64,000 bases of DNA from Candidatus Zipacnadia bacterium (GCA_029820945.1 JALGUJ010000008.1:1337-65336), one strand, 5' to 3'. Shown: positions 7,092-25,762, counted from the first letter of the stretch. The notes: generated from the sequence alone by a model not told the origin. Numbers and translations: made by a program.

Positions 7092-7137
7092 CTGTGAGGT
7101 AACTTTGAGGGAATCCGGGAGGGTCCTGTGCTACAAT
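7092..7137 (+). promoter_or_regulatory. Promoter with CTGTGAGG-type direct repeat and TACAAT -10
   Basis: Direct repeat CTGTGAGG-N3-CTTTGAGG with an 11-bp period at 7092 to 7110, then TACAAT at 7132 to 7137. The gap between the repeat and the -10 is too long for the repeat to act as an ordinary -35, so an activator is expected. The same layout is found upstream of 23765 and, more weakly, upstream of 25244, both minus-strand genes. Confidence 0.6.
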
Positions 7138-7246
7138 AACCAACGACACAGCGGGAAGCGCCTATGGATGGAATGGATAGCGAGGTCGGAAGAGCGCAAC
7201 CGAGGAAGACCCACCAGGTAAAAGACCGCAATCAAACATAGTGGAA

Positions 7247-7298
7247 CCAGGGAGATGGGGCTCCCTGGCTCCGGGGCAGACGTGCATCCTGGCTTGGG
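7247..7298 (+). ncRNA. Leader RNA element, copy C (AUGGGG hairpin plus CCTGGCTTGGG)
   Basis: An 8-bp stem CCAGGGAG/CTCCCTGG (7247 to 7254 with 7261 to 7268) closes an ATGGGG loop and is followed at 7288 to 7298 by CCTGGCTTGGG. The same two conserved blocks occur in the leaders of two minus-strand PEP-CTERM genes, where the stem is GAGGAG/CTCCTC. The stem sequence differs while pairing is kept, so a structured cis-acting RNA is likely. It sits 118 nt after the -10 and about 150 nt before the GHMP kinase. The rest of the 7138 to 7451 gap holds a small GCCACC/GGTGGC hairpin at 7388 to 7403 and no coding frame I trust. Confidence 0.55.
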
Positions 7299-7317
7299 AC
7301 TTAGCCTGCCGTAATTC

Positions 7318-7346
7318 TTTATAGCAAACGCCACAGCAATTGTCAA
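7318..7346 (-). promoter_or_regulatory. Near-consensus sigma-70 promoter directed leftward, antisense to the leader
   Basis: On the minus strand TTGACA (7346 to 7341) and TATAAA (7323 to 7318) are separated by exactly 17 bases. Transcription would begin near 7311 and run back through the leader element and then antisense into the decarboxylase-like gene. No minus-strand coding sequence follows. Confidence 0.6.
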
Positions 7347-7451
7347 GGCCCCGAAGGCGTATCCCCGGCCGCGAGCCCCCGGAGCTCGCCACCCACAGGT
7401 GGCCTGCCGTCCCCATCTCCACATGGCGAGGCTGTCCGGAGGCGAGCCGAG

Positions 7452-8588
7452 ATGATCGTCCATCGATGTGTCGGGGCGCGAGTCGGACTGATGGGGAACC
7501 CGTCCGACGGGTTCGGCGGGAAGACCATCGCCGCGCTCCTCGAGGACTTCTACGCCTCGATGACCCTATGGGAGTCGCCTTCGCTCGAAATCATCCCACA
7601 TCCGCAGTTCGATCCCTTCCGCTTCGACAGCATCGACCACCTTGCGCGCGTCGCCGAAGATGACGGCTACTACGGCGGCGTGCGGCTGCTGTACGCCACC
7701 TGCAAGCGGTTCCACTCATACTGCCGGGAGCACGGCATCGGGCTGGACGACCGCAACTTCACACTCGAGTACGACACCACGATCCCACGCCAGGTGGGGC
7801 TGGCGGGCTCGAGCGCGATCATCACGGCCGCCCTCAAGTGCCTCATGGACTTCTACGGTGTCACCGATGCCGACATTCCCCGAGAGGCCCAGCCGCAGAT
7901 CGTGCTCTCCGTCGAGACTGAGGAGCTGGGCATCCAGGCCGGGCTGCAGGACCGAGTGGTCCAGGTCTACGGTGGTCTGGTCTACATGGACTTCGACAGG
8001 GCGCTGATGGAGCGACAGGGGCACGGCCGTTACGAGCCGCTGGACCATGCCAAGCTCCCGCCACTGTGGGTGGCCTACGTTCCGCGCTCAACGGAGTGCT
8101 CGGGCAATCTGCACAACAACATGCGCTACCGGTTCGCCAGCGGCGAGCCGGAAGTCGTCGCGGGGATGAAGGAGTTCGCGCACTACACCGACCTCGCCCG
8201 TGAGGCCATTGAGGCCGAGGACTACGAGGCCTTCGGCGAACTGATGAATCGCAACTTCGATCTGCGACGCAGGCTCTACGGCGACGAGGCTCTGGGCCGG
8301 CATAACCTGGAGATGATCCAGATTGCCCGGAGCGCGGGGCTGCCCGCGAAGTTCCCGGGCTCCGGCGGGGCGGTCGTCGGCATCTACGATGACGCGGCCC
8401 GGCTCGAATTTGCCGCGGAGGCATTCCACCAGGCCGGCTACGCCGTCCAGCCGGTCACGCCGACGTCCGAGCTGACGCCTTCGTGGGCCGGCGAAACGTA
8501 CGAGCGCACAATCGAGGCCGCCGGCGGAGCCGCCTGGCGGCGGTCGGTGGCGAGCCAGTTTGGTGACGACGTGCTGGTGGCCAAGTAG
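7452..8588 (+). CDS. GHMP kinase, glucuronokinase-like
   Basis: A 378-residue GHMP-superfamily sugar kinase. The N-terminal GNPSDGFGGKTIA segment and the phosphate-binding loop IPRQVGLAGSSAII near residues 111 to 124 match the pattern of glucuronokinases, which phosphorylate glucuronate at C1. The C-terminal motif is GSGGAVVGI near residue 300. Product glucuronate 1-phosphate could be turned into UDP-glucuronate by the uridylyltransferase at 18681, feeding the decarboxylase at 6069. GGAGG lies 9 bases before the ATG. The gene begins after a long 370-bp leader carrying a conserved RNA element. Other heptose or galactose kinases share the fold, so the substrate is inferred. Confidence 0.8.
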   Translation: MIVHRCVGARVGLMGNPSDGFGGKTIAALLEDFYASMTLWESPSLEIIPHPQFDPFRFDSIDHLARVAEDDGYYGGVRLLYATCKRFHSYCREHGIGLDDRNFTLEYDTTIPRQVGLAGSSAIITAALKCLMDFYGVTDADIPREAQPQIVLSVETEELGIQAGLQDRVVQVYGGLVYMDFDRALMERQGHGRYEPLDHAKLPPLWVAYVPRSTECSGNLHNNMRYRFASGEPEVVAGMKEFAHYTDLAREAIEAEDYEAFGELMNRNFDLRRRLYGDEALGRHNLEMIQIARSAGLPAKFPGSGGAVVGIYDDAARLEFAAEAFHQAGYAVQPVTPTSELTPSWAGETYERTIEAAGGAAWRRSVASQFGDDVLVAK

Positions 8589-8621
8589 CCGATTACAGGG
8601 CCCGACAGGAGCCCAGGCTTG

Positions 8622-9788
8622 ATGAAGATCGCCATGCTCGGCGTGAAGAGCGTCCCCGCCATCGGCGGGATAGCTCACTACGTCGAAGAGGTCGGCAGCA
8701 GGCTGGTGGAGCGCGGTCATGATGTGACCGTGTACTGCCGCCCTCAGTACATCGAAGGGAATGGCGAGTACCGCGGCATGCGCCGAGTCATCACGCCGGG
8801 CATGCGCGGCAAGCACCTGGACGCGCCGACCCACACGCTCACGGCCGCGTTTCACGCTGCTTGCTCGAAGTTCGATGTCGTGCACTTCCACGGGTCGGCG
8901 CCGGCGGCGTTCGCGCCGCTGTCCCGGGTGCTTGGTCGGCAGAAGGTGCTGCTCACCATTCACGGGCTCGACTGGCAGGGCGCCAAGTGGGGCTCGCTGG
9001 CATCAACCCTGATGCGAGGCGCCGGACGCGTGGCGGCGACCAGCGTGCAGAAGATCGTTGCGGTGTCGCGCAGCGTCAGCGAGCAGTACGCCCAGGTGGT
9101 GCCGTGCAGCATCTCGGTGGTCCCCACCGGCGTTGACTTCCCGGAGCTGGCCGAGCCGCGCGAGATCCTCGAGATGGGGCTCGAGCCGGGGGAGTACGTC
9201 TTCACCGCCTCGCGGCTGATGCCGGAGAAGGGGCTGCACCGCCTGGTCGCCGCCTGGGAGAGCGTCGACACGGACAAGACCCTGGTCATCGCGGGCAACG
9301 CTCCCTACGAGGACGAGTACACCAGGGAGCTGCTCTCGCACGCCAGCAAACGGGTCCGGTTTCTCGGCTACGTCAAGGGGCGGCTGCTCGCCGAGCTGTT
9401 CTCGAACGCCTATCTCTACGTGCAGCCCTCGGAACTTGAGGGGCTGTCGATTGCCGTGCTCGAGGCGCTGAGCTACGGGCGGTGTGTGCTGGCCAGCGAC
9501 ATCGCGGCCAACTGCGAGGCGCTGGGGCCCTGCGGCTACACCTTCCGAAGCGCTGACGTGCTCGATCTGTGGCGTAGCCTGCGGGCATTGCTCGAGAGCC
9601 CGGAGGCCGTTGCGGCGCAGTTCATCATCGCGCGCGAGCATGTGCGCCGCCAGCGCAACTGGGACACGACCGTAGACGCCTACGAGTGCCTCTACGAGGA
9701 CCTGCTGGTTGGACGCACGGTCTTCCCCGCCGATCAACCGGACTCATCGCCCGCCGCCTCGGCTGCGCGGCGGCGGGCAGCGGTGTAA
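8622..9788 (+). CDS. Glycosyltransferase family 4
   Basis: A 388-residue GT-B enzyme. The N-terminal MKIAMLGVKSVPAIGGIAHYVEE region is the glycine-rich acceptor-domain loop, and the C-terminal QPSELEGLSIAVLEALSYG segment is the EX7E donor-site motif. The ATG at 8622 is preferred over the TTG immediately before it; AGGAG is about 10 bases upstream. It lies 33 bp after the kinase and 12 bp before the sugar transferase, so it belongs to the same operon. The sugar transferred is not predictable. Confidence 0.9.
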   Translation: MKIAMLGVKSVPAIGGIAHYVEEVGSRLVERGHDVTVYCRPQYIEGNGEYRGMRRVITPGMRGKHLDAPTHTLTAAFHAACSKFDVVHFHGSAPAAFAPLSRVLGRQKVLLTIHGLDWQGAKWGSLASTLMRGAGRVAATSVQKIVAVSRSVSEQYAQVVPCSISVVPTGVDFPELAEPREILEMGLEPGEYVFTASRLMPEKGLHRLVAAWESVDTDKTLVIAGNAPYEDEYTRELLSHASKRVRFLGYVKGRLLAELFSNAYLYVQPSELEGLSIAVLEALSYGRCVLASDIAANCEALGPCGYTFRSADVLDLWRSLRALLESPEAVAAQFIIAREHVRRQRNWDTTVDAYECLYEDLLVGRTVFPADQPDSSPAASAARRRAAV

Positions 9789-9800
9789 GGAGGACATCCG

Positions 9801-10505
9801 ATGGCTGAGACGCGCACGTTGGAGCGGCCTGAAGTCGGCTCGCCCGGACAGTGGGCTGCCGGCGCGGATGCGGCCTGGCCCGCCGACTGGTCCCGGTCGG
9901 AGGTCTCGGCGTTGTACCTCGCCATCAAGCGTGGTGGCGACATCGTGCTGGCACTCATGGGCATCATCCTCTGCCTGCCCCTGTGGCTCATCGTGGCAAT
10001 CGCCATCAAGCTCGACTCCCGAGGCCCGATTCTGTTTCGTCAGAGGCGTCCGGGCCACCGCGGCGTGCCCTTCACCATCCTCAAGTTCCGCACCATGCGC
10101 GAGGATGCGGAAGAGCGCCTCGGCGAGGTCCTCGAGCACAACAAGGAGCCAGATGACTCGCTGATCCGGGTCGATGACGATCCGCGCGTTACCCGCGTCG
10201 GCCACTGGCTGCGCAAGTGGAGCATCGACGAGACGCCGCAGTTCATCAACGTGCTGAAGGGGCAGATGAGCATCGTCGGTCCGCGGCCGATCTCACGGCC
10301 TATCCACGATCCGCGCGGCCTGCTGCGACTGGAGGCGGTGCCCGGAATCACCGGAGTGTGGCAGACGAACGGGCGGAAGCTCACCGACTGCCAGCACATG
10401 CTCGAGCTGGACATGAAGTACCTGCAGGACCGCTGCATCCTGCTTGACCTGGCCATCATCAGAGGCACATTCGCAGCGGTGTTGCGGGCCGAGGGAGCGG
10501 AGTAG
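9801..10505 (+). CDS. Priming sugar-phosphate transferase (bacterial sugar transferase family)
   Basis: A 234-residue monotopic phosphoglycosyl transferase that moves a sugar phosphate from a UDP-sugar to undecaprenyl phosphate and so starts each polysaccharide repeat unit. One hydrophobic segment (about 45 to 70) precedes the motifs PILFRQRRPG, FTILKFRTM and the catalytic Asp-Glu in SIDETPQFINVLKG, with VGPRPISRP following. It lacks the four-helix N-terminal region of long WbaP/WcaJ enzymes, so it is the short form. AAGGAGG lies upstream of the ATG. It sits directly before the EpsI-like gene. Confidence 0.92.
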   Translation: MAETRTLERPEVGSPGQWAAGADAAWPADWSRSEVSALYLAIKRGGDIVLALMGIILCLPLWLIVAIAIKLDSRGPILFRQRRPGHRGVPFTILKFRTMREDAEERLGEVLEHNKEPDDSLIRVDDDPRVTRVGHWLRKWSIDETPQFINVLKGQMSIVGPRPISRPIHDPRGLLRLEAVPGITGVWQTNGRKLTDCQHMLELDMKYLQDRCILLDLAIIRGTFAAVLRAEGAE

Positions 10506-10513
10506 GGACAGCG

Positions 10514-11176
10514 ATGAGAGGAATCGCGCGTCCACATCTTGCGGCCGTCGCGGTCCTGGCCCTGGCGCTCATCGCCGGGCAGGCGGGCCGCACCGTGGTT
10601 GACGTCTCCGACCTGCCGCTGACGTCGGTGCCGGAGGCGCTCGGCCCGTGGACGTGCATCGAGCAGGAGATGCCCGAGGAGAAGAACACGGGGGAGGCGG
10701 CCTACCTCAAGCGGACCTACCGCCATGAGGATGGCACCGAGATCCTGACGAGTCTGCAGGTGACATCGAGCCGGCTGGGCGCGCTGCGCAACTGGTCGGT
10801 GGCGATGATGGGCAACGGCTGGAACGTGGATGAGCCGACTCGGATGAGGCCCCGCGAGGTCGAGGGGCTGCCCTTCGAGATGACCGCGAAGCTGCAGTGG
10901 CTCCATCGGCCGGGAAGGCGGATGTTCACGGCCACCTGGTTCGTCTCGCCGCGGGGCCAGGCGCTCGAATACGAGAAGGCGCAGATGCTCGGGTGGCGCG
11001 ATAAGCTGCTGGGCAAGTGCATCTGGGGCGAGATGTACCTGAGGAGCACGAGCGCCGACTCAGCGGATAGCGCCGAAAAGGCAACTGAGGATCTCGTTGT
11101 GCGATTGGCTCCGCACTTCTACAACCTGTTGACACGTGCGGACACGAAGACACTTGCCGGGACCGGGGGAGCCTGA
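10514..11176 (+). CDS. Exosortase-associated EpsI-like protein
   Basis: A 220-residue protein with an N-terminal signal anchor (about 8 to 27) and an extracytoplasmic domain that fits the EpsI/DUF3485 family, in which a short LGPWTCIEQEMP stretch and a YKR-like TYRHEDGTEIL stretch recur. In exosortase systems this domain occurs alone or fused to the exosortase; here it stands alone 6.4 kb from the exosortase at 17596. Its molecular role in the family is not settled. It overlaps the following membrane-protein gene by one base (TGATG), indicating coupled translation. Confidence 0.75.
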   Translation: MRGIARPHLAAVAVLALALIAGQAGRTVVDVSDLPLTSVPEALGPWTCIEQEMPEEKNTGEAAYLKRTYRHEDGTEILTSLQVTSSRLGALRNWSVAMMGNGWNVDEPTRMRPREVEGLPFEMTAKLQWLHRPGRRMFTATWFVSPRGQALEYEKAQMLGWRDKLLGKCIWGEMYLRSTSADSADSAEKATEDLVVRLAPHFYNLLTRADTKTLAGTGGA

Positions 11177-13059
11177 TGGTGTCTCACGCTGAAGACATGC
11201 AGCAGCGCAGACGGGTGGCGCGCGGGCAGCGGACCGCGTCCGCGGCGCGTGACGCCGCCGACAGCCGCGCGGTGGTCAACCGGATGGCGCGGGCCTGGCT
11301 GCTCGGGGCCCTGGTCGCCGGCTTCGGCGTGGCGCTGGTGATCCGCTTCTACGGCACGCACTTCGACCGGCTCCGCACGCTGGACGGAGTGAACGTCGCA
11401 CAGGTCGCGCGCAACGTCGAGCGCGGGCGAGGGCTGAAGACCGACGTGATCTACCCGATGCACGCCGCCCTGGGAGACGCGAACGACAGCCGCCACGACA
11501 TCGCGGCCGGGCCGCTCTACGCGTTCGCCCTGGGCATGTTCTTCAAGGGGCGTGGGGCAGAGGACAGTTCCGTCGCGCTCTTCAACATCATCCTTCTGTT
11601 CATTACGGCAGCCTTCGTGTATGCGCTCATCAACCTGGTCTATGACAAGACGACCGCCATCTGGGGCGTGCTCGCGTACTTCATCAGCATGAAGGCGATC
11701 TCGCAGGCGCTCGGGGCCGGGGGCGCAACTATGGGCGCGCTGGCGGTCACGGCCGCGCTCTACTTCGGGCTGGTGGCGCACAAGAACGCTCAGGCGGCCG
11801 GTGAAGAGACCGACGATGACGAGGCGCGCTCGATCTGGACCAGGCTGAAGATGCTCTACCGGTCGCCGTGGCCGTGGGCCGTCGCCGCGGGCCTGGCGGC
11901 CGGCCTGGGCTACCTGACGGGCATGGTCGGATGGTTGGCGATCGGAGGCCTCGTGTGGGTCGCGGCACAGATCGGCGAGCGGCGCAGGACGGCGCTGGTC
12001 GTCGCCGGCGTGCTCGCGGTGATCGTCGCGGCGCCGTGGCTGGCGCGGAACTTCACTCACTTCGGGGCGCCCACGCCGCCGCTGCACAGCTACAGCCTGC
12101 TGATGTACACCGCCGAGTTCCCGGGGCGCAGCTTCATGTGGCAGACCACGGGGCTGCCGGAGAGCCCGGCGCTGTGGGCCGTCACGCACCCGATGGCGAT
12201 GGTGCGCAAGATTGGGTATGGGGTCAGCGGCTTCTACGCGACCGTGCCGGAGTTGGTGAACCGCTACCTGTTCCCCTTCTTGGTGGTCGGGCTGTTCGTG
12301 CTCCCGAAGACTCGAGGCCAGCGACTGCTGTGGGGCGGCGTGTGGTTCATCCTGCTGGCGCAGCTCCTGACGGGGGCGGTCTACGACCGCGATCCGGACC
12401 CGCTGGCCGTCGTCACGCCCGCCGCCATCGGGCTCGCGGTCGCCACGCTGATTGGCCTGATGCGCGAGCACGTGACCGGCAGGCGGGCGATCCTCGGCGT
12501 CGGGGTGGCGGCGGCGCTGCTCGTGGCCATTCCCTACATCGCGAGCTCAGTCGCCGGGGGCCCCGGGCCCGCGAACCCGTCGAAGCCGGCACTCGATATG
12601 CTGGCCACGCAGGTCCCGCGCCAGGCGCTGATCGCGACGGACAACCCGTGGCAGGTCGCGTGGTACGGCGGGAAGCGCGCGCTGTTGCTGCCCGAGAGCA
12701 GCGCGCAACTGCAGGCGCTCGGGCAGGCCGGCATCGAGCCGGACGTGGTCTACCTGTCCGGCGAGCTGCGCGGCGCGCGCGTGGAGCGCGGCCGGGAGTA
12801 CTGGGCGCGCATACTGATGACCGGCCAGGGCGTGGACGATCTGCCCATGCTGGACAAGGCGCAGATGTTGCCCAATGGCGAGGCGCTCATCACGCTCGAG
12901 CACGCCAAGGCGATGATCGACGAGCTGCGCGAGCGGGCCGCGGCGGCCGCCGCCGACGCTGAGGGGCAAGAGGGCGCGGCCGAAGAGGGCGCTGACAGCG
13001 GCGTGACGGAGTCAGAGGGGGAGCCGACGGCGAAGCAGGGAACGCCCGAGGATCAGTAG
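11176..13059 (+). CDS. GT39/ArnT-like polytopic membrane glycosyltransferase
   Basis: A 627-residue integral membrane protein with a hydrophobic helix at 35 to 58 followed by an extracytoplasmic loop (RTLDGVNVAQVARNVERG) that resembles the GT-C family 39 first loop carrying the catalytic Asp. Many further helices follow up to about residue 480, then a soluble C-terminal part ending in an Ala/Glu-rich tail. Enzymes of this family take sugars from polyprenyl phosphate. The position between EpsI and the PEP-CTERM genes suggests glycosylation of sorted proteins or of the polysaccharide; that is inference. It is possible that it is only a GT39-like protein of unknown activity. Confidence 0.7.
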   Translation: MVSHAEDMQQRRRVARGQRTASAARDAADSRAVVNRMARAWLLGALVAGFGVALVIRFYGTHFDRLRTLDGVNVAQVARNVERGRGLKTDVIYPMHAALGDANDSRHDIAAGPLYAFALGMFFKGRGAEDSSVALFNIILLFITAAFVYALINLVYDKTTAIWGVLAYFISMKAISQALGAGGATMGALAVTAALYFGLVAHKNAQAAGEETDDDEARSIWTRLKMLYRSPWPWAVAAGLAAGLGYLTGMVGWLAIGGLVWVAAQIGERRRTALVVAGVLAVIVAAPWLARNFTHFGAPTPPLHSYSLLMYTAEFPGRSFMWQTTGLPESPALWAVTHPMAMVRKIGYGVSGFYATVPELVNRYLFPFLVVGLFVLPKTRGQRLLWGGVWFILLAQLLTGAVYDRDPDPLAVVTPAAIGLAVATLIGLMREHVTGRRAILGVGVAAALLVAIPYIASSVAGGPGPANPSKPALDMLATQVPRQALIATDNPWQVAWYGGKRALLLPESSAQLQALGQAGIEPDVVYLSGELRGARVERGREYWARILMTGQGVDDLPMLDKAQMLPNGEALITLEHAKAMIDELRERAAAAAADAEGQEGAAEEGADSGVTESEGEPTAKQGTPEDQ

Positions 13060-13221
13060 GCCCGGACGGGCCGCTGATCGTCGGATGCTCGATACAGAGG
13101 CGGACAGTACATGATGTGGTGGAGAGCATTCAGAGGTTTTCCCGTAGGCCATTCGGTCCCTACTGGCGACGGCCGTGGCAGCGGGAAGCGGACGAGCTTC
13201 GGAGGGGAGGAGGTGAGAACC

Positions 13222-14283: not shown

Positions 14284-14300
14284 CCAGGGACCTTGGGAAC

Positions 14301-14326
14301 GGGGCGGCGGGTCGCCACGCCGCCCC
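14301..14326 (+). terminator. Hairpin after PEP-CTERM gene
   Basis: Nine-base stem GGGGCGGCG/CGCCGCCCC around an 8-nt loop, 17 bp after the stop codon. No U-rich tract follows, so termination is likely but unproven. Confidence 0.5.
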
Positions 14327-14434
14327 AGGACCACAAAGAGATAGCACGTCGCTCCGACAACACGCGCATCGCCGACCGGCGATCGCCATGGACGGTCTGA
14401 CGGTTCGCAATCTGCCGGAGGACGTGGGCAGTTG

Positions 14435-14475
14435 GATGGGCCGCCGAACAGCCGGTGCGGAACCGGCGGCCCATC
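14435..14475 (+). repeat. 12-bp inverted repeat in PEP-CTERM intergenic gap
   Basis: GATGGGCCGCCG at 14435 to 14446 pairs with CGGCGGCCCATC at 14464 to 14475 around a 17-nt loop. A similar hairpin occurs at 17269 to 17314. The remaining 14284 to 14656 sequence shows no gene. Confidence 0.5.
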
Positions 14476-15805: not shown

Positions 15806-16146
15806 CGCGGACAGGAGCTGCTGATCTGGACAACTCCGACCCTAGGGTCGCTTGACGGACATGCGAGACGCTCGGATCAACTCAGGATCGTGAAGCCGGA
15901 TCGCCTTGACGCACGACGATGGACGGGAGGCGTGCACAGGTCACATGCCGGGGCGCCGCCCGGACGAGCCGCGGGACGAGACGCATGACATCAGAACATA
16001 GAGCAACCCCACCGTGAAAGGGGCAGGCGATGTCAATCTCATGGGTTGAGGCTGTCGTCGGCTACGGGGAGCTACTCGGCATCGCCCATACCGACGGGCA
16101 GCATGGGATCTGCTCCGAAGTCCATAGGAAGAAGGGAGGCAAACGC

Positions 16147-17124
16147 ATGAGAAGACTATCGATCCTGATCGCCGCAATGTTCGCAGTGGCGCTTGTTGCC
16201 ACGCCAGCGTTCGCCGCGGAGAATTCGGTGTACGACTGGTGGTCCGCCGCATTCCCGAGCGACGCGCTTACCCAGGGCGAACTCGACACGGATGTCAACA
16301 GCACGACATCAGGCGCGGGTTACTACGGCGCCGGGTATACCGCTGGCGGCACGACCTACAAGGGCGTCTGGCACAACGGCGACGCCTTCACCGAGATCCG
16401 AGTCGAGCTGGCCGGCTGGCGCAACATCAACAGCTTCGGCTGGTACGGCTGGGATCTGGGCACGAGTGGGTACACACCCATCAATGACAGCAGAAGGACC
16501 ACGGAGTACGACATACGCGGTGATGGCTCGCCGTTCGGGCTGTACGAGATCTTCCCCGGAACGGCGGGAAGTGGTGCCACCTGGACCTCTGTGACGAACA
16601 GTTGGTTCAACGATCACTCGTATGACGCTCCGGAGATGTGGGGCTTCTACATCCACACCAACCACGGGACGTGGTTCAGCGAGTGGGCGTACAACGACCG
16701 CACGAGCTACGCTGACCAGCGGCACCTGGAGGTCTTCGACCACCCGGGCCACGGCCACAACAACAACGGAACGAAAGGGACCAAGTGGGTGCTCTGCTGG
16801 GAGGACCTCAGGCGAAGTAGCTGGGACACCGGCTACTACGACGGATCGAAGTGGACGACGGCTACTTGGCAGAACAGCGAAGGCGATACGAGCCTACGCA
16901 ACGACCACAATGTGTTCGAGAACTGGGGTAGTCACTTCACGAACCCCTACGACAACGACAACGTCACGGCCGAGCCGGACTATCAGGACATGATCCTGAC
17001 CTTCGAGCGGTTCTCCTACCAGCAGCACGACTGGGACGACTCGCCCGAGCTTGGCACCTGGGCGCTGCTTGCATGCACCGGCGTCTTCGGTGGCCTGCTC
17101 CGGCGACGGCGCAGGGAGGACTAG
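16147..17124 (+). CDS. PEP-CTERM-like sorted protein of unknown function
   Basis: A 325-residue secreted protein. ATG at 16147 follows GAAGGGAGG, giving MRRLSILIAAMFAVALVATPAFAAE as a signal peptide; an in-frame ATG 117 bases earlier lacks a good ribosome site. The mature chain is rich in Trp, Tyr, Asn, Asp and Gly and has no recognisable catalytic motif. The C-terminus has DDSPELGTWALL, a hydrophobic stretch and RRRRRED. It is the third of three consecutive such genes leading to the exosortase. The gap before it (15806 to 16146) holds a 14-bp palindrome at 15837 to 15850 and no clear promoter. Confidence 0.82.
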   Translation: MRRLSILIAAMFAVALVATPAFAAENSVYDWWSAAFPSDALTQGELDTDVNSTTSGAGYYGAGYTAGGTTYKGVWHNGDAFTEIRVELAGWRNINSFGWYGWDLGTSGYTPINDSRRTTEYDIRGDGSPFGLYEIFPGTAGSGATWTSVTNSWFNDHSYDAPEMWGFYIHTNHGTWFSEWAYNDRTSYADQRHLEVFDHPGHGHNNNGTKGTKWVLCWEDLRRSSWDTGYYDGSKWTTATWQNSEGDTSLRNDHNVFENWGSHFTNPYDNDNVTAEPDYQDMILTFERFSYQQHDWDDSPELGTWALLACTGVFGGLLRRRRRED

Positions 17125-17559: not shown

Positions 17560-17595
17560 AGCAATCATCTTGACCGACGACTCGGATCATCAGCG

Positions 17596-18615
17596 ATGCC
17601 TGAGAATGAGAGACGGACCGCGAACCTGGTCGGACCCGCGATTGTCGGTGGCCTGGTGGCCGCCACAATCGTGGGTGCCATGTACCGGGACGTCGCCGCC
17701 TACTTCTGGCAGCGCTGGATCACCGAGGACACCTATCATCATTGCCTGTTCGTGCCTGTCGTGGTCGGCTGGCTGATCTGGCGGCGGCGCAGCGACCTCC
17801 AGGAAGCAGAGCTGAACCCGTCGTGGGCCGGCCTGCCGCTGCTGGTCGTGGGGGCGCTGCTGTATGTCGTTGCCATGCGCGTCGGCGTGCGTGTGGCCAT
17901 CGGCCTGTCCTTCCCCATCATCATCGGCGGACTCGTCTGGACGGGCCTGGGCGGAGGCTATGCGCGCCTGCTGGCGTACCCGCTGGGGCTGCTCGTCTTC
18001 CTGATCCCGGTACCCAAGCACATCCTCGGCCATGCCGGGATGCCGCTGCAGGTGCTCTCGGCGGGCGGCGCGGCGAAGGTCGCGCATGCCCTGGGGCTTC
18101 CCGTCATCCACGATGGCATCAACCTGACGCTCAACGGCCACACCTACGTGATCGCGGAGGCGTGCAGCGGGCTCAACTCCCTGCTCGCGCTGCTCTTCGC
18201 GGCGGCCGTGCTCGTCGAGATCATGAGCGTGCGGTGGACGGGGCGGCTCGTGCTGCTGGCCATCCCCGCCATCGTTCTCGCCGCCAATACCATCCGGCTC
18301 ACATCGGTGCTGCTCTTCGCGGAGTTCGCCGGACCCGACTTCGCCATGGACTCGTTAGTACACGGTGGATCGGACATCATCGTCTACCTCGCCGCGCTGG
18401 CACTTACCTGGGGGCTGATCGACCTGGTGTCGGCGCAGCGACTGCTGGCGATTGCGTTTGGCTGGGACGACCACACGAGCGGCCCAGGCGCGTCCGTGTC
18501 GGGGGAGGAAGACGGCCCGTGGCGCGAGGACCATTCGCCTGACGGCCCCGCGCCGCGCCGCGACTTCGTGGGGCCTGGGGTCGAGGCGGGGGATCTGCAG
18601 AGCGTGTACAAGTAG
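17596..18615 (+). CDS. Exosortase (PEP-CTERM protein-sorting transpeptidase-like protease)
   Basis: A 339-residue polytopic membrane protein with about eight hydrophobic helices. The three conserved catalytic residues of the exosortase/archaeosortase family are visible: Cys190 in EACSGLNSL, Arg234 in NTIRLTSV and His256 in SLVHGGSD. The family cleaves PEP-CTERM-type tails after membrane insertion, releasing or anchoring surface proteins. It is the only exosortase seen here, so it probably serves all seven tailed proteins in the window. The last 50 residues are hydrophilic and low complexity, an extension beyond the usual core. The separate EpsI-like gene at 10514 is its expected partner. Confidence 0.93.
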   Translation: MPENERRTANLVGPAIVGGLVAATIVGAMYRDVAAYFWQRWITEDTYHHCLFVPVVVGWLIWRRRSDLQEAELNPSWAGLPLLVVGALLYVVAMRVGVRVAIGLSFPIIIGGLVWTGLGGGYARLLAYPLGLLVFLIPVPKHILGHAGMPLQVLSAGGAAKVAHALGLPVIHDGINLTLNGHTYVIAEACSGLNSLLALLFAAAVLVEIMSVRWTGRLVLLAIPAIVLAANTIRLTSVLLFAEFAGPDFAMDSLVHGGSDIIVYLAALALTWGLIDLVSAQRLLAIAFGWDDHTSGPGASVSGEEDGPWREDHSPDGPAPRRDFVGPGVEAGDLQSVYK

Positions 18616-18680
18616 GGAGACCGTGCCTGCAGGGGCGGTCGGGGTGAAACGAGGACATTCCCCGGAAGGGGTAGTGATGC

Positions 18681-19562: not shown

Positions 19563-19643
19563 CCGGCGGGGCTCCCGTTGGCGACGCGATGGCCGCGAGC
19601 GTCGAACCGCGCGTTTAGAACATCACCGGGGGCGTGGGCCTGC

Positions 19644-20429
19644 ATGAAGGCGACGGTGCTGCTCGTCGAAGGCGATCCGGATCTGTGCTGCGCGCTGAGG
19701 GCCCGGCTGGAAGAGGAGGAGGTCGCCGTCACGGAGGCCGACTCCGGCATCAGGGCGCTCGCCCTCTCGGAGCTGCATCGGCCGGACCTGGCGATCGTGG
19801 ACCTCGCCCTCCCCGACATGAGCGGGATCGAGTTCTGCGACAAGATGCACCGGGTGTGCGACGCCCCCACGCTGCTGCTCGGCGTGATGCTCCCGGAGGA
19901 GCGGGAGATGGCGGGGCTGCGGCCGAGCATCAGCGACTACGTCCCCAAGCCGTTCGACAATACAGAGGTGGTCGTTCGCGCGCTCCGACTGCTGCGTGGC
20001 TCACGACCGCGGAACGAAGGTGGAAAGGCCGTGCAACAGGGGCGGCTGCTGACCCTCGGGGATATCTGCCTGGACCTGCGCACTCACCGTGTATCGGTTG
20101 GGCGGCGGGAGATCAAGCTACGTCCGACGGAGGTCAAGCTGCTGCGGACGCTCATGGAGCGCTCGCCTCGCGTCGTGTCTCCGGAGGCGCTCGTCCAGCA
20201 GCTCTGGCCCGAGGGCGCCCAGGACTACGCCGCCCTGGGTGACGCTATCCTGGCACTACGAGATGCCCTCGAGGACGATCCGCTCCAGCCGAGGCGGATC
20301 AAGCACGTGCCCGAGTACGGCTACAAGCTTGAGGCGGTGGCCGAACCCCGCCTCGATAGAGGCGGCGGTAATCGCAACGACGACAGCAACGCCGGCGCCT
20401 ACCCGGCCGCCACATCCACCAGCTTGTAG
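19644..20429 (+). CDS. OmpR-type response regulator with atypical receiver domain
   Basis: A 261-residue protein with an N-terminal receiver (about 1 to 120) and a C-terminal winged helix (about 140 to 235). The phosphoacceptor Asp53 (IVDLALPD) and the Lys in VPKPF are present, but the acidic pair reads E9-G10 instead of two acidic residues and the conserved Thr/Ser region reads LLLGVM, so phosphorylation may be weak or absent. ATG 19644 starts the receiver; an upstream in-frame start adds only an unlikely 22 residues. It converges on another regulator, their 3' ends overlapping by 31 bases. It is a candidate for binding the CTGTGAGG repeats. No histidine kinase is encoded in the window. Confidence 0.82.
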   Translation: MKATVLLVEGDPDLCCALRARLEEEEVAVTEADSGIRALALSELHRPDLAIVDLALPDMSGIEFCDKMHRVCDAPTLLLGVMLPEEREMAGLRPSISDYVPKPFDNTEVVVRALRLLRGSRPRNEGGKAVQQGRLLTLGDICLDLRTHRVSVGRREIKLRPTEVKLLRTLMERSPRVVSPEALVQQLWPEGAQDYAALGDAILALRDALEDDPLQPRRIKHVPEYGYKLEAVAEPRLDRGGGNRNDDSNAGAYPAATSTSL

Positions 20430-21121
20430 CCAAAGCCCCTGACCGTCACGAGGCGCCTGGGGGAGCGGGGCTCCTGCTCGAGCTTGCTGCGCAGCCGGTA
20501 GATGTTGCTCTCCACGATGTGCCGGTCGTAGCCGTCGTAGCTCCACACGGCGCGGATGATCTGGTCCACGCTTACCGCGCCGCCTCCCCGCTCCGTGAGG
20601 ATGCGAAGCAGCTTGAACTCCGTGGGGGAGACATCCAGCCGCTCGCCGTCGAGCCAGACCTCGCGCGTCGATAGGTTGAGGCTGACGCCGCCGTACGAGA
20701 GGATGGAGTGCCCGTTGTTGTCGTCCTCGCCATTGCCCCCCAACGTCGAGGCGACCCAGGACCGTCTCAGCAGTGCTTTGATCCTCGCCTCCAGCTCCCG
20801 AAGGCTGAGAGGCTTCGTGAGGTAGTCGTCGGCGCCATTGTTGAGGCCGTCGATCCGGTCCCGCTCCTCACACTTCGCGGAGATGATGATGACCGGGATG
20901 GTGCTGTGCTCCCGGACCCACTCCAGTACCTCCTCGCCCGAGACGTCGGGCAACATCAGGTCCAGGATCACGAGGTCGAAATCGCGCGAGTCGAACACCC
21001 GAAGTGCGGCCCGGCCCGAGGGCGCGTGCAACACTCGGTATTTCGACCGCTGGAGCCTGTGCTCCAAGGCCGCGGCGAGCAGAAGGTCGTCCTCGACCAG
21101 CAACAGCGTGCCTTCCTGCAT
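20399..21121 (-). CDS. OmpR-type response regulator, canonical receiver
   Basis: A 240-residue two-domain regulator. The receiver has the complete active site: E10-D11-D12, phosphoacceptor Asp54 in VILDLMLPD, Ser in IIISAK and Lys in LTKP. The C-terminal winged helix ends with RRLVTVRGFGYKL, the usual wing of the PhoB/OmpR class, which binds 11-bp-spaced direct repeats. Start at ATG 21121 fits the receiver; upstream in-frame codons are not needed. Its long 5' gap (21122 to 21506) carries two such repeats at 21507 and 21601, so autoregulation is plausible. Its partner kinase is not in the window. Confidence 0.9.
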   Translation of the reverse strand: MQEGTLLLVEDDLLLAAALEHRLQRSKYRVLHAPSGRAALRVFDSRDFDLVILDLMLPDVSGEEVLEWVREHSTIPVIIISAKCEERDRIDGLNNGADDYLTKPLSLRELEARIKALLRRSWVASTLGGNGEDDNNGHSILSYGGVSLNLSTREVWLDGERLDVSPTEFKLLRILTERGGGAVSVDQIIRAVWSYDGYDRHIVESNIYRLRSKLEQEPRSPRRLVTVRGFGYKLVDVAAG

Positions 21122-21506
21122 GACCCAGCTACACCCCTTACCTGGCGCGTTATGCACTGTGTCCAGCCGGCACAGAACGCGTCCCCACCCCATCTCCCTG
21201 GAGGGCTCGAGGCGTGCCCCCAGCTACGGCGAAGCTGCGTGGTGTCTTGAGATGTGCGTCGGTGCGACTCGCTCCTCTCTGGATGTCGCCCCATGTGCCG
21301 AGACGATAAGCGGCCTCCGCCCAAGTGGCTGCGATGATGGAGGCCGCGATGGTGGCTTCAGCTCACGTGATGCTCACGACTACGCTGCTGCTATTGTAGT
21401 CCGTGGGATGCATGCGGTCAACGTCACAACGAATAAGATCAGGTTAAGATACATTGATGTGCCTACTATCGTATCGCACCCTACGGCCGCCTGTCTACTG
21501 ATTCCT

Positions 21507-21525
21507 CCTCACAGCAACCTCACAG
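21507..21525 (-). promoter_or_regulatory. CTGTGAGG-type direct repeat (perfect)
   Basis: On the minus strand CTGTGAGG-N3-CTGTGAGG, both halves identical with an 11-bp period. It sits in the divergent gap between the canonical response regulator and the metalloprotease gene, 385 bp from the former and 205 bp from the latter. The period is that of OmpR/PhoB-type operators. Confidence 0.55.
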
Positions 21526-21600
21526 TATCGCCAATGCCCTGATCGACAGAGCGCCCTCTCGTGGGCCGTCTCGCCTATCATCCGCGCTGCCGGGGCCCCA

Positions 21601-21661
21601 TCTCACAATCGCCTCACAGGCGCTCGCTGCGGTTGACCGGACATGCCCGTCGGCCTATTCT
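21601..21661 (+). promoter_or_regulatory. Metalloprotease promoter with upstream direct repeat
   Basis: The repeat (CTCACAA-N4-CTCACAG, the reverse of CTGTGAG) occupies 21601 to 21619. It is followed after 13 bp by TTGACC (21633 to 21638), a 17-bp spacer and TATTCT (21656 to 21661). Transcription would start near 21668, 60 bases before the ATG at 21731. The placement just upstream of the -35 is that of an activator site. Confidence 0.6.
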
Positions 21662-21730
21662 GTATGATGGTGGAGTATCGGTCATGAGCGACCTGCCGGT
21701 TGGACCGCGCTCGACAAGCAGTGACGCGAG

Positions 21731-22963
21731 ATGCCATCACGAGCGATCGCCAGAGTGTGGACCGTCCTGGGAGCTGCGGCGCTGACCGCCGCCGCCTGTC
21801 TCCCGGTCGCGGCCGACAACGTCTTCTGGCTAGACTTCACGGACTTCGACGCATCGCCCTACGGCTTCGGCGGCCAGGAGGACTTGCTCGTCGCCGACAT
21901 CTACAGCAGCGTCGTCGCGGACTACTCCCCGTGGTCCTCCTTCACCATCGGCTACGACTTCGACGCGGTGACCCCCGGCTACCAGGCGCCCTCGGGAACC
22001 TACTCGCACATCGACATCGGCGGCTACGACGGCGACCCGGGCCGCTACATCTTCGGGATGGCCGACGACATCGACTGGCGCAACCTCAATCACGAGGACG
22101 GCGCCGTGATCTACAGCAGCGAGTTCGACGCCTGGGACTCGAGCTACTTCGACGACTGGGATCGGCTGACGAACGCCCTGGCCGGTACCACCGCGCACGA
22201 GATGGGCCACATCCTCGGGCTCTGCCACCACCATGCATTCGGGCCGATCGGCGAGGCCGGCGTGCCGTCTTACGGAGCCTACCCCTACGAGGGCGGATCC
22301 GAAACCAATGAGCACCTCATGGCGACGGGGAGCACGGGTCTCTCCAAGTCCGAGCGGGCGGCCGACCGGTACTTCGGCGAGCGCGAGACGTGGGTGCTCG
22401 ATGCGGCCGACGGTCGCATCACGGTCCACGCCGAGGCGAGCGACCACGGCAGCCGCGACACGGCACAGCTCCTGTCGGGCGGCTGCAGTGTGTCGGTGAC
22501 CGCGTCGATCAGCGTGGTGGGCGAGGAGGACTGGTACGCCTTCTCGTGGCACGAGGGTGATCGGGTCAGCATCGAGGTGTTCTCGCAGCGGTGCAATCGC
22601 TTCTCATCCAACCCCATCGACCCGTACTTCGAGCTGTACGACCCGCTCGGGAATCTGTTGGACAGCTACGACAACTACTGGTCGTACTCGACCGGGCACG
22701 ACGGGGCGCTGCTCGATTACCTTGTGCCCCAGACGGGCATGTGGCACGTCGCTGTCGGAGGAATCGGCTACGAGAGCGCACCCAACCAGGATTTCGTCTA
22801 CGGGCAGGGCCCGGCCGACGACGGTACTGGCAGTTACGAGCTGTGGACATACCGCGATTCGGTGCCTGAACCAGCAACCACCAGTCTGCTGCTGGTGGCA
22901 CTGGCCAGCGTCGGGATCTGGGGGAGGAGACAAGTCAAACGGATGAGAGGGGCCTCGAGCTAG
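21731..22963 (+). CDS. PEP-CTERM metzincin-type metalloprotease
   Basis: A 410-residue secreted protein with a signal peptide ending near VAAD. The zinc site is H156-E-M-G-H160-I-L-G-L-C-H166, a full HExxHxxGxxH metzincin motif. A C-terminal pre-peptidase-like domain (about 235 to 370, with DTAQLLSGGCSVSVTASI and EEDWYAFSW) precedes the sorting tail VPEPATTSLLLVALASVGIW, then basic RRQVKRMRG. This is a classical PEP-CTERM tail, unlike the SPEL tails of its neighbours. The protease probably acts at the cell surface or in the matrix. Substrate is unknown. It has its own promoter at 21633. Confidence 0.88.
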   Translation: MPSRAIARVWTVLGAAALTAAACLPVAADNVFWLDFTDFDASPYGFGGQEDLLVADIYSSVVADYSPWSSFTIGYDFDAVTPGYQAPSGTYSHIDIGGYDGDPGRYIFGMADDIDWRNLNHEDGAVIYSSEFDAWDSSYFDDWDRLTNALAGTTAHEMGHILGLCHHHAFGPIGEAGVPSYGAYPYEGGSETNEHLMATGSTGLSKSERAADRYFGERETWVLDAADGRITVHAEASDHGSRDTAQLLSGGCSVSVTASISVVGEEDWYAFSWHEGDRVSIEVFSQRCNRFSSNPIDPYFELYDPLGNLLDSYDNYWSYSTGHDGALLDYLVPQTGMWHVAVGGIGYESAPNQDFVYGQGPADDGTGSYELWTYRDSVPEPATTSLLLVALASVGIWGRRQVKRMRGASS

Positions 22964-23041
22964 CCGACCTCGGCTTGGACGGACGGATGCCGCTCGCTCG
23001 TACGCGCTCGGCGTTTCCCGCTAGGTGTCAGTGTGAGAACA

Positions 23042-23069
23042 GGCCCTCAGCATGTCGATGCTGAGGGCC
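23042..23069 (+). terminator. Hairpin terminator after metalloprotease gene
   Basis: A perfect 12-bp stem GGCCCTCAGCAT/ATGCTGAGGGCC closes a GTCG tetraloop about 80 bp after the stop codon. The following sequence is only mildly T-rich (CGCTTGTGCTT). Confidence 0.65.
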
Positions 23070-23194
23070 CGCTTGTGCTTCAATCCGTCGGTTGTTCGTG
23101 GACCGTGACCCCTTCGCGGCTTCACAGGGTTCACTCGTCCGGGCTGTCGCGGCTGGCAGAGGCCGGGAATCCCGACTTCTGACTCATGTGCACA

Positions 23195-23218
23195 GGGCGG
23201 CCTGGCGACCCACCGCCC
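23195..23218 (-). terminator. Hairpin terminator for the minus-strand PEP-CTERM gene
   Basis: GGGCGG/CCGCCC with an intervening loop that on the minus strand reads TGGGTCGCCAGG. The whole arm resembles the hairpin at 14301 (GGGTCGCCA loop inside a GC stem), so the same kind of terminator follows two PEP-CTERM genes. Confidence 0.5.
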
Positions 23219-23237
23219 AGTGCGCATTCAGCAGTCG

Positions 23238-23765
23238 TCAGCCACCCTTGCGCCGCCTGACCAGTCCGCCAATGGCCCCGGCGCAGAGCAGCAACGCCCA
23301 GCTGCCAAGCTCTGGTGAGTCACAGCCCGGCCCGTCGAAGGCGTAGATGTCGTGCGTTCGGCCCCCTTCGAAGCCGTCCGCGGTGTAGCTGTACCAGTGT
23401 GAGGTGCCGGTCTCCAGCACCGTGAGGTCGCATGGGCTGTCAGTGTAGCGGATCTTCGCGTAGTCGAAGTCGTGCTTCTTGTTGTAAGTAAGCACATTGG
23501 CGACGTAGCTACTGCTAACCCAGGTGGAGTCGTTCCAGAAGGCTCCATAGGAGCCGTCTGCATAGGTCTCCCAGCCGGACATGCTGATGCCGTACAGCTC
23601 CCAGTCCCCAAGCGGCCAAATCTGGACGTAGTTCCAGCCGGGGCTGACTCCGTACCAGTAGAAGGTAGCGCTGGGGTTCCCTTCCTCGACGGCGATCTGT
23701 GCGTGGAGCGGACCGCAGGCCACGACTACACCTGCGACAACGGCAATAATCACTATGCGTCGCAT
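23238..23765 (-). CDS. Small PEP-CTERM-like sorted protein
   Basis: A 175-residue secreted protein. ATG at 23765 follows GGGAGGTGA and gives MRRIVIIAVVAGVVVACGPLHAQ as signal peptide. The mature part of about 125 residues is rich in aromatic residues and has no known motif. The tail CDSPELGSWALLLCAGAIGG plus RRRKGG is the variant sorting signal, with a Cys directly before it. The gene carries a 380-nt leader with a conserved RNA element and a promoter at 24157. It shares this upstream region layout with the next minus-strand PEP-CTERM gene and with the GHMP kinase at 7452. Function unknown. Confidence 0.8.
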   Translation of the reverse strand: MRRIVIIAVVAGVVVACGPLHAQIAVEEGNPSATFYWYGVSPGWNYVQIWPLGDWELYGISMSGWETYADGSYGAFWNDSTWVSSSYVANVLTYNKKHDFDYAKIRYTDSPCDLTVLETGTSHWYSYTADGFEGGRTHDIYAFDGPGCDSPELGSWALLLCAGAIGGLVRRRKGG

Positions 23766-24012
23766 GTAGTCACCTCCCATCTCTTCCAGCTAGGTTGTCC
23801 CTCCATCCGACGCTGGTGCCATCCGAGCCGCCAGTTGGGGTGTCGATGGCAGCGTCGGTTGAGGTTCGATGGTCAGGGGAGATGGGGGGATCGGTGGTGA
23901 GGGAGAACGACTGCGGCCACACGGCGCCGCTGTTCCGCGGTGCGCGACGCACGATGCGTCCTGCTGAGGTCGTCCCCCAATGCGGAGAGGGCTCGGCGGG
24001 CCGAGGCGTTCG

Positions 24013-24054
24013 CCCAAGCCAGGCCAGGCGCAACATGAGGAGCCCCATCTCCTC
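24013..24054 (-). ncRNA. Leader RNA element, copy A
   Basis: On the minus strand GAGGAG-ATGGGG-CTCCTC forms a 6-bp hairpin (24054 to 24037), followed by CCTGGCTTGGG at 24023 to 24013. The blocks GGAGATGGGGCTCC and CCTGGCTTGGG are identical in copies B and C. It starts 104 nt after the -10 of the promoter at 24157 and lies in the leader of the gene at 23765. The remaining leader (23766 to 24012) is GC-rich without a credible gene. Confidence 0.55.
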
Positions 24055-24151
24055 GCATGCGACCGTCCGTCTCGGCAATGCGTCCTCGCCGCTGGAGCAA
24101 CCACACGATATGCCGCGTGCCTGAGTGCCTGTTGCTCCGTCCTTACACGAT

Positions 24152-24198
24152 ATTATACACCATCCGGGGCCCTGCACCTCCTCAAGAGAACCTCACAG
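24152..24198 (-). promoter_or_regulatory. Promoter with CTGTGAGG-type direct repeat and TATAAT -10
   Basis: On the minus strand CTGTGAGG-N3-TCTTGAGG (24198 to 24180) is followed by TATAAT starting at 24157, 41 bp from the repeat start. The equivalent distance upstream of 7452 is 40 bp. It drives the leader of the small PEP-CTERM gene. Confidence 0.65.
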
Positions 24199-24354
24199 TT
24201 TTTCGCACCGCAGGCACACAGTCCCGTCGAAATCCACGGGAGTTTGGACTCGGGGTGTCGGCCGTCCGGGCCTGGGCGCCGGGCGTCTGGGGAGCGAAAG
24301 GACGGCCTCCTGCGCGGTGCACACGCGCCGCGAGGAGCGTATCGCTTGGCGGTC

Positions 24355-24432
24355 TCAGGGGCGTTCGTACGCCCCGAGGTCGGGCGCGTCACCGCGGGGG
24401 TTGCCCCGGAGGTCCACAGCCACGAGCTCAGG
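24355..24432 (-). pseudogene. Remnant of a parallel beta-helix protein C-terminus
   Basis: The last 25 codons read LVAVDLRGNPRGDAPDLGAY plus ERP and stop, nearly the same as the terminus of the beta-helix gene at 25850 (VDFAGNPRGDAPDLGAFQRQ). A 37-bp stretch is identical in both (24369 to 24405 and 25864 to 25900). No matching upstream beta-helix coding sequence is present, so this is a broken copy or the scar of a recombination. Confidence 0.6.
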
Positions 24433-24465
24433 CGAGACACTGGCGCTTCGTAGTGACGACGTGAG

Positions 24466-24497
24466 AAGGCCGCCGCGAAATGACTCGCGGCGGCCTT
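24466..24497 (-). terminator. 12-bp hairpin downstream of minus-strand PEP-CTERM gene
   Basis: AAGGCCGCCGCG at 24466 to 24477 pairs perfectly with CGCGGCGGCCTT at 24486 to 24497 around an 8-nt loop. It lies 58 bp beyond the stop codon of the gene at 24555. Confidence 0.6.
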
Positions 24498-24554
24498 TAG
24501 TTCCTGCTGCACGGACCGGCGGGCTGGCGGCGCCCCGCCGGGTGCGACCCTCAG

Positions 24555-25244
24555 TCAGTCGTCCTTCCGGCGGCGTCGCAGGAGCCCGCCGACAGCACCT
24601 GTGGCAAGCAACAGAACCCAGGTGCCGGGCTCGGGCGAGTCGTCCTCCTCGCCAGCTTCGTAGCTCTGACCCTCGAGCCGGAACGCTGGCTCTTCCGAGG
24701 TCCACGCCCAACCGTAGGGCATAACCCCTCCCCCCGGCGGATGGTTATAGTACGATCCGTCGGTCGACGCCGGGTCGGCAAACTGCCAGGCCCCGCCGAC
24801 GGACCCACCATAGTCGCTGCCCATCACCAGCCAGTAGGTGGTGTCAGCCGCCAGCGTCGGAACAGAGGTACTCGGCATTACGCTGACCTGTCCATACTCG
24901 TCTTCAGGCAGCTCGAACCGGTCAGCTACGGGCAGCGCCCAGACTACGCTATCGGGGCCGCCGTTGTCGGACCAGATCTCCAGCCAGAACTCGTTCTTGG
25001 AGCCTAATCCTCCGAGTCCCACATACCAGCCGTATACGTCGATGCTGCTGATGTCCCACTGCTCCAACGGCGTGAAGTTATTCGCGCGCCATGTGCCGCT
25101 GTCGCAGTTGCCCCCGCTGAAGTCCCCTTCGCACATGAGGAAGCCATCGGTCGTGTTGTCGAACAGTGTCTCCGCCGCCGATGGTTGAGGCGTGGCGAGG
25201 CCGAAGAGCACCAGACAGCATGTGGCAATGCAGACACTTCTCAC
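24555..25244 (-). CDS. PEP-CTERM-like sorted protein with SPEPGTW tail
   Basis: A 229-residue secreted protein starting at GTG 25244, with AAGGAGG eight bases upstream and signal peptide MRSVCIATCCLVLFGLATPQPSAAE. The mature part resembles a choice-of-anchor domain: GWYVGLGG, FWLEIWSDNGG and TYWLVMGSDYGG fit a jelly-roll fold. Its tail, DDSPEPGTWVLLLATGAVGG then RRRRKDD, is intermediate between the SPEL variant and classical PEP, linking the two. A 480-nt leader with element B and a promoter at 25722 precedes it. Function unknown. Confidence 0.82.
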   Translation of the reverse strand: MRSVCIATCCLVLFGLATPQPSAAETLFDNTTDGFLMCEGDFSGGNCDSGTWRANNFTPLEQWDISSIDVYGWYVGLGGLGSKNEFWLEIWSDNGGPDSVVWALPVADRFELPEDEYGQVSVMPSTSVPTLAADTTYWLVMGSDYGGSVGGAWQFADPASTDGSYYNHPPGGGVMPYGWAWTSEEPAFRLEGQSYEAGEEDDSPEPGTWVLLLATGAVGGLLRRRRKDD

Positions 25245-25579
25245 GTGTCTCACCTCCTTCCGTGGTGGTACGATTCCGCTGAGGCAGCTACAGAAGGTGC
25301 CGCCAGAAGCCGCTTCCGTATCGCCGTGCGCGGGTACGGCAAACCTTGAACCATAGTGGCTTGGCGATCCAACACCCGGCCAACGGCTGGAAAGACGCAC
25401 GCCGCTGAGCCGGAGTGTTTAGTTACTGACGTCACGTAAGCCGGGTTCGATGGCCCGTTCTGCCGGCAGCGATTGGTCAGCTCGTCGTGGGGAAAGGATG
25501 GGAGGCGAGCCCGAGGGCACCCATCGGGACACGTGCACATATAGTCTATAGGGACGACGCTGACAGGTTGGGTGCCTGG

Positions 25580-25621
25580 CCCAAGCCAGGTGAGGCGTGA
25601 CATGAGGAGCCCCATCTCCTC
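25580..25621 (-). ncRNA. Leader RNA element, copy B
   Basis: On the minus strand GAGGAG-ATGGGG-CTCCTC (25621 to 25604) is followed by CCTGGCTTGGG at 25590 to 25580. In this copy the second block can also fold as CCTGGC-TTGG-GCCAGG. It starts 102 nt after the inferred -10 at 25722, against 104 nt in copy A. Confidence 0.55.
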
Positions 25622-25716
25622 TACGAGCTTGTCGTCACGACGGTCGTCTGTCAGTCCGGCTCTGTCACTCAGATGCGGGCGAGGCGCAATGCCGCGATCC
25701 GCGCGCATCGTGGGAG

Positions 25717-25762
25717 ATATTCTCTTCGCCCGGCGATCCTCCTTCCCAGACCTTCCTCACAA
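25717..25762 (-). promoter_or_regulatory. Weaker promoter of the same architecture
   Basis: On the minus strand TTGTGAGG (25762 to 25755) is followed 40 bp later by GAATAT (25722 to 25717). The second repeat half (GTCTGGGA) matches only 4 of 8 positions. Spacing to the leader element agrees with copy A, which is the main support. Confidence 0.4.

Follow-up and report, generated by a model that had tools for sequence, protein, structure and literature searches.

Antisense control within a long leader has been described for icsA of Shigella, where RnaG is made from a strong promoter inside the leader, the convergent promoters are 120 nt apart, hairpins form a kissing complex, and the antisense attenuation is relieved by an activator of the sense promoter (PMC5394118). 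Small hairpin antisense RNAs pairing with a leader are also found in plasmid copy control and its relatives (pMV158 RNAII, PMC4485353; ColE1 RNAI and FinP/traJ, in PMC5394118). PEP-CTERM genes of Proteobacteria use sigma-54 and PrsR (PMC1569441, PMC9850573), and many PEP-CTERM genes, in Proteobacteria and beyond, have long upstream regions whose motifs and regulators were left to be discovered (Haft et al. 2006, PMC1569441). Here we analyzed a stretch of 64,000 nt (the window; GCA_029820945.1, JALGUJ010000008.1:1337-65336) from a 5.35 Mb metagenome-assembled genome (MAG) of Candidatus Zipacnadia, Armatimonadota (class description: PMC10290634). It holds an exosortase/exopolysaccharide (EPS) locus with an exosortase, an EpsI-like protein, chain-length and tyrosine-kinase-like proteins, glycosyltransferases and several PEP-CTERM proteins. 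A two-hairpin element recurs in three leaders of this locus: copy W1 precedes a GHMP-type sugar kinase gene, and W2 and W3 precede the genes starting at 23765(-) and 25244(-). The reading we favor, and hold to be fairly probable from the sequence, is that W1 encodes an antisense RNA within the kinase leader, which would also pair in trans with PEP-CTERM leaders.

In analogy to icsA/RnaG, the antisense RNA would start within a long leader, from a strong promoter of its own, the convergent promoters being about 170 bp apart here, two hairpins are proposed for loop-loop contact, and the sense promoter has a candidate activator. Unlike RnaG, which is about 450 nt long and described on its own cognate mRNA, the predicted RNA measures about 75-80 nt and has candidate trans sites in other leaders; moreover, the phylum is a different one and the box is of the OmpR/PhoB type. 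With the sigma-54/PrsR-PrsK motif of PEP-CTERM genes (PMC1569441) the system shares a regulatory sequence in long upstream regions and a two-component regulator near the exosortase/EPS locus, but it has a direct-repeat box, a sigma-70-type -10, regulators of the OmpR rather than the NtrC type and an additional RNA element; the sigma-54 pattern TGGCAC-N5-TTGC was not seen in the three leaders. In contrast to the plasmid RNAs, it is chromosomal, tied to polysaccharide and surface-protein genes, and has extra complementary sites outside its own locus. A literature search yielded no small RNA described for the phylum Armatimonadota or for PEP-CTERM genes, and no work combining PEP-CTERM with small RNA and antisense. 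Proposed here is a candidate regulation for one PEP-CTERM group, made up of a two-component-type box and an antisense small RNA whose covariation support comes from nine genomes. If true, it would be uncommon for a single RNA to act both on the leader to which it is antisense and on leaders of genes with linked functions. The proposal opens the joint expression of polysaccharide and sorted surface proteins to testing.

Two classes of element and a predicted small RNA gene

As read directly from the sequence, the parts of the three copies lie in the order and at the positions given by the original prediction. Both segments described as invariant are present in W1, W2 and W3, namely GGAGATGGGGCTCC at 7251-7264(+), 24052-24039(-) and 25619-25606(-), and CCTGGCTTGGG at 7288-7298(+), 24023-24013(-) and 25590-25580(-). 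The spacing from ATGGGG to TGGCTTGGG is 35 nt in W1 versus 27 nt in W2 and W3. The ordered pair GATGGGG-N12..40-TGGCTTGGG matched three times in the genome, each time at the window locus, and the reversed control pattern once.

The element consists of two hairpins, the first with six loop bases on a stem of 6-12 bp, the second with a variable stem that surrounds YCC-UGGNUY-GGG. Among seven copies, three of six pairs are altered on both sides, corroborating the earlier observation that pairing is kept while the sequence changes; among 16 copies this holds for nine of 13 pairs. The covariation score was 0.324 versus 0.177 in shuffles (500, all exceeded) and at most 0.176 when slid; the shuffles ignore relatedness, and the resulting number is not a probability. 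Loop-loop pairing within the element was also considered and rejected, since inspection of alignment A7 gave no supporting covariation.

Further copies were found ahead of an unlinked PEP-CTERM gene of the same genome (see below) and, in relatives, ahead of kinase genes of polysaccharide loci, which supports the original prediction. The seven-copy model led to diverged copies before GHMP kinases in a second family, and a third family was found next. With the 16-copy model, 19 copies were detected in 9 genomes (E <= 6e-5), which amounts to 9 of 291 Armatimonadota genomes overall; no other match fell below 0.02 in 40 genomes or below 5e-4 in the 291. All 19 are confined to three families of one uncultured order, the carriers being Candidatus Zipacnadia MAGs, and the neighbors are GHMP kinases or PEP-CTERM genes in nearly all cases. 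That the motif is real is virtually certain.

The three copies had been regarded as one leader element on the sense strand, be it a riboswitch, a leader bound by protein or a processing site. This view is not supported for W1, where, as at eight copies elsewhere, the opposite strand very probably encodes a small RNA with a promoter and a terminator that had been overlooked:

7230-7311 (-): predicted two-hairpin small RNA gene with predicted ends, from promoter, fold (-39.7 kcal/mol), U-rich tail and orthologues
7341-7346 (-): small RNA promoter, -35 TTGACA, 17 bp from the -10; 0 of 1000 shuffles as good
7318-7323 (-): small RNA promoter, -10 TATAAA, from sequence
7310-7275 (-): small RNA 5' hairpin, from the fold
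7272-7243 (-): small RNA 3' terminator hairpin, loop CCCCAU, then a U-rich tract, from the fold
7243-7311 (+): W1 in the kinase leader, sense view, candidate cis antisense target; from sequence and covariance-model hits

Nine copies (W1, G007a, G037b, G037c, G021a, G029c, G019, G023 and G026; p of 0 to 0.012 each against shuffles) have an opposite-strand sigma-70 promoter (TTGACA/TATAAT-like, 17-18 bp spacer) at a distance of 21-25 bp from the motif. On the small-RNA strand the 3' hairpin has a 10-12 bp stem, of 12 bp at W1, and the next 22 nt contain 8-12 U versus 2-6 U in the four copies of PEP-CTERM type; at W1 the tract has interruptions. Since no reverse-oriented gene lies downstream, the W1 RNA would not be the leader of another gene. 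Furthermore, the single imperfect H1 pairs of W1, G007a, G037b and G037c are A.C on the sense strand and hence G.U on the small-RNA strand, and forward G.U pairs are absent from these four copies. The PEP-CTERM copies and the second copies of family f3 have no opposite promoter, shorter stems and often forward G.U; because of these differences we distinguish, from sequence features, predicted small RNA genes (class A) from sense leader elements (class B). None of the nine class-B copies carries an opposite-strand promoter, and the PEP-CTERM copies have no terminator there either.

The class-B copies are also what speaks for a sense-strand element bound by a protein or ligand throughout, with the opposite promoters being incidental or secondary: besides having no such promoter and showing forward G.U, they lie at similar distances from the box, and a long conserved stem encloses the second f3 copies. 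We consider this improbable, as it leaves unexplained nine promoters at fixed distance, the U-rich tails and the A.C/G.U asymmetry of the kinase copies, and finds no match in Rfam. Neither at gathering nor at permissive thresholds did any Rfam family match the element, in line with the earlier view of an undescribed class.

The antitermination elements of EPS operons (RfaH/ops, LoaP or EAR) likewise are RNA or DNA elements in the leaders of polysaccharide operons. Although the present element also sits in leaders of polysaccharide-locus genes, an element of that kind is highly improbable: the Rfam library, which covers described families, gave no match, NusG-domain proteins occur just once per genome and not in the locus, so that a NusG paralogue is missing, short single genes carry the element too, and the kinase copies are predicted opposite-strand genes. 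A short leader peptide deserves as little credence. GGAG-ATG-GGG-CTC opens a frame (MGLLMxRLxWLG...) that reaches the next gene and stays open for about 92-121 codons in W2, W3, G007b and C128 (a copy on another contig, see below). However, other frames are nearly open too, and the frame relation to the gene varies (1, 2, 0, 1). In W1 a stop follows 19 codons and the second segment falls in another frame; a conserved block further downstream lies in different frames in W2 and G007b; and GGAG directly adjoins ATG, too close for a ribosome site.

Box promoters and the kinase leader

The shared repeat and -10 hexamer stand as an activator-type promoter box; in W3 the second half-site and the -10 are weak, and there the earlier description was too generous. 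The relevant features are:

7092-7110 (+): direct-repeat activator box CTGTGAGGTAACTTTGAGG, forward promoter of the kinase leader
7132-7137 (+): -10 TACAAT of the W1 forward promoter, from sequence
24180-24198 (-): W2 promoter box CTGTGAGGTTCTCTTGAGG, from sequence and genome box search
24157-24152 (-): W2 promoter -10 TATAAT, from sequence
25744-25761 (-): W3 promoter box, degenerate, 3 mismatches, from sequence
21507-21524 (-): box TGTGAGGTTGCTGTGAGG upstream of RR2, candidate for autoregulation, from sequence and genome box search
19578-20429 (+): RR1, OmpR/PhoB-type response regulator, start uncertain (PF00072 and PF00486)
20399-21121 (-): RR2, OmpR/PhoB-type response regulator (PF00072 and PF00486)
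7452-8588 (+): GHMP-type sugar kinase (PF00288/PF08544)
17596-18615 (+): exosortase, EpsH family (TIGR02602 above cut-off)

The box, TGTGAGG-N4-TTTGAGG, places two 7-bp half-sites 11 bp apart where a -35 would stand, and 7-bp direct repeats at this distance have the geometry of PhoB/OmpR sites. A box of the form TGTGAGG-N5-KTGAGG occurs exactly five times in the genome, four of them on the window contig, and box sites precede the kinase, PEP-CTERM genes and RR2. We lean towards an OmpR-type regulator of the locus acting on the box; one or both of the response regulators would then activate the kinase and PEP-CTERM promoters.

Reverse-reading boxes were also noted at 29919-29902(-) and 21618-21601(-). 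Because they precede the forward PEP-CTERM genes 30073-31098 and 21731-22963, the box may serve divergent genes. Two further good boxes of the same genome (L122, G000:C90:17672; L127, G000:C89:15420) stand before seemingly secreted proteins, and no element of this kind was found behind either of them.

At W1 the box promoter (7092-7137) faces the predicted small RNA start at about 7311. A conserved forward promoter, TTGACA-17-TATACT, lies 237-253 nt upstream of the motif in the f3 genomes G037, G021 and G029, so that the convergent arrangement is present in f3 too; G019 and G026 have weaker forward promoter candidates upstream. The placement in the kinase leader is kept in three families. Antisense action on the kinase leader is likely.

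Between element and start codon, both the W1 and the W2 leader carry a segment complementary to the element's GGAGATGGGG, and one-mismatch versions occur in G009 and G007b:

7411-7420 (+): CCCCATCTCC in the W1 leader, possible refolding partner; exact complement, 0 of 500 shuffles
23878-23887 (-): CCCCATCTCC in the W2 leader, complementary to the element; 0 of 500 shuffles

Since CCCCATCTCC can pair with the element itself, it suggests a leader that would be able to refold upon binding of the small RNA. The sites are some 200-370 nt upstream of the start codons, which makes blocking of the ribosome site less likely than refolding of the leader or premature termination; as a mechanism, attenuation or refolding is put forward only tentatively.

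Candidate pairing sites in the PEP-CTERM leaders

With their flanks, the exposed loops of the predicted small RNA, CCCCAU and AAGCCA, form the complement of GGAGAUGGGGCUCC and CCUGGCUUGGG. Both of these segments recur in the leaders of W2, of W3 and of a PEP-CTERM gene unlinked to the window, each behind a copy of the box. This last copy, the fourth in the genome, was found on contig C128 via a one-mismatch box; its stem is AGGGG/CCCCU and the protein ends in SPEPATWVLLLATGALGGWARRRRGD. The two invariant segments of W2 and W3 are exactly the 14 and 11 nt complementary to the two loop regions:

23998-24060 (-): W2 leader element, class B, candidate trans pairing site; covariance-model hit, 14 + 11 nt exact complement, no reverse promoter
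25565-25627 (-): W3 leader element, class B, candidate trans pairing site; covariance-model hit, 14 + 11 nt exact complement, no reverse promoter
21188-21201 (-): RR2 leader, CCAGGGAGATGGGG, an exact 14-nt complement of the small RNA that is absent from the G007 leader; from sequence
23238-23765 (-): secreted protein behind W2 with a C-terminal sorting-like tail ...SPELGSWALLLCAGAIGGLVRRRKGG; from translation, below the Pfam PEP-CTERM threshold
24555-25244 (-): PEP-CTERM protein behind W3 (PF07589, TIGR02595)

In the proposed course of events, the small RNA, made antisense inside the long kinase leader from its own sigma-70 promoter and ended by its intrinsic terminator, would contact the kinase leader in cis and the PEP-CTERM leaders in trans via loop-loop contacts and thereby tune expression, whichever sign this effect would have. 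For the trans action on PEP-CTERM leaders the chances appear evenly balanced. Ranking by RNAduplex had no discriminating power on DNA this rich in GC.

The complementarity has to be weighed against a real small RNA that acts in cis only, as an antisense RNA of the kinase leader or through promoter collision, the PEP-CTERM copies being functionless remnants of a duplicated promoter-leader. Such a history would account for the joint occurrence of box, -10 and element in all f1 copies, and for the f6 genomes, in which the kinase-adjacent copy is the only one and no leader-type copy was found. Nevertheless, we judge it unlikely, as it is precisely the two segments complementary to the loops that are conserved, whereas flanking leader sequence hardly aligns between copies, and the unlinked C128 copy keeps these segments too, with a compensated stem.

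Apart from the f6 genomes, several observations weigh against an antisense RNA with trans targets. The loops match within f1 and within f3, and duplication could explain this match; in particular, the identity of small RNA and target loops within f1 could reflect duplication rather than co-evolution. In f3 the complementarity is not kept at the fourth base of the second loop, which is C in the small RNA copies and never C in the leader copies. The class-B copies of f1 (24052-24013(-) and 25619-25580(-) in the window, L030 10898-10836(-)) have in common AUGUCNCGCCU, a stretch between the two segments that lacks complementarity to the W1 small RNA; these copies may serve an additional role or descend from a recent common source. 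By inspection, no obvious U-run terminator follows downstream in the W1 and W2 leaders, and the copies G029a and G037a have U-rich tails and no good promoter.

Taking the antisense RNA with trans pairing as the preferred reading, a wider picture, which we estimate at somewhat below an even chance, would be a riboregulated PEP-CTERM regulon: the small RNA would have arisen antisense in a polysaccharide-kinase leader and its pairing sites would have been copied into PEP-CTERM leaders, coordinating the supply of exopolysaccharide precursors with exosortase-sorted surface proteins.

Further copies and minor observations

The syntenic locus of G007 has two copies and G009 has one. In the second family the loop GUGCCG replaces AUGGGG, with up to four copies per locus. 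The contig of G023 stops just before the expected kinase position, leaving the neighbor unseen. Most GHMP-kinase orthologues of other family members have no such element at the gene start. An exact-pattern search of 84,980 genomes returned two Zipacnadia MAGs and five scattered matches, the number expected by chance; likewise, eight phylum-wide pattern matches outside the order were judged to be chance, the reversed pattern having given a similar number.

In G037:C28 (L113 2492, 3806, 4303), three tandem copies of the small-RNA type and one leader-type copy precede a single kinase gene, and the promoter of the first tandem copy is degenerate. In f3 a long-range stem of 14 bp, AUUGGGGAAGAGAG/CUCUCUUCCCCAAU, which covaries, surrounds the second leader copy immediately ahead of the kinase gene (L113 4540-4690, L114 3505-3630, L111 4600-4740). 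In G009:C166 (L031 8774-8283(-)) the box and leader element stand before a GHMP kinase fragment of no more than the initial 47-64 residues; next comes the orthologue of window 16030-17124, as though the promoter-leader had been retained for a different gene. Finally, a second hairpin, CCGACGCUG...CAGCGUCGG (GCCAUC/GAUGGC inside), lies a short way ahead of the W2 gene at window 23860-23780(-) and is conserved in G007 (L030 orthologue).

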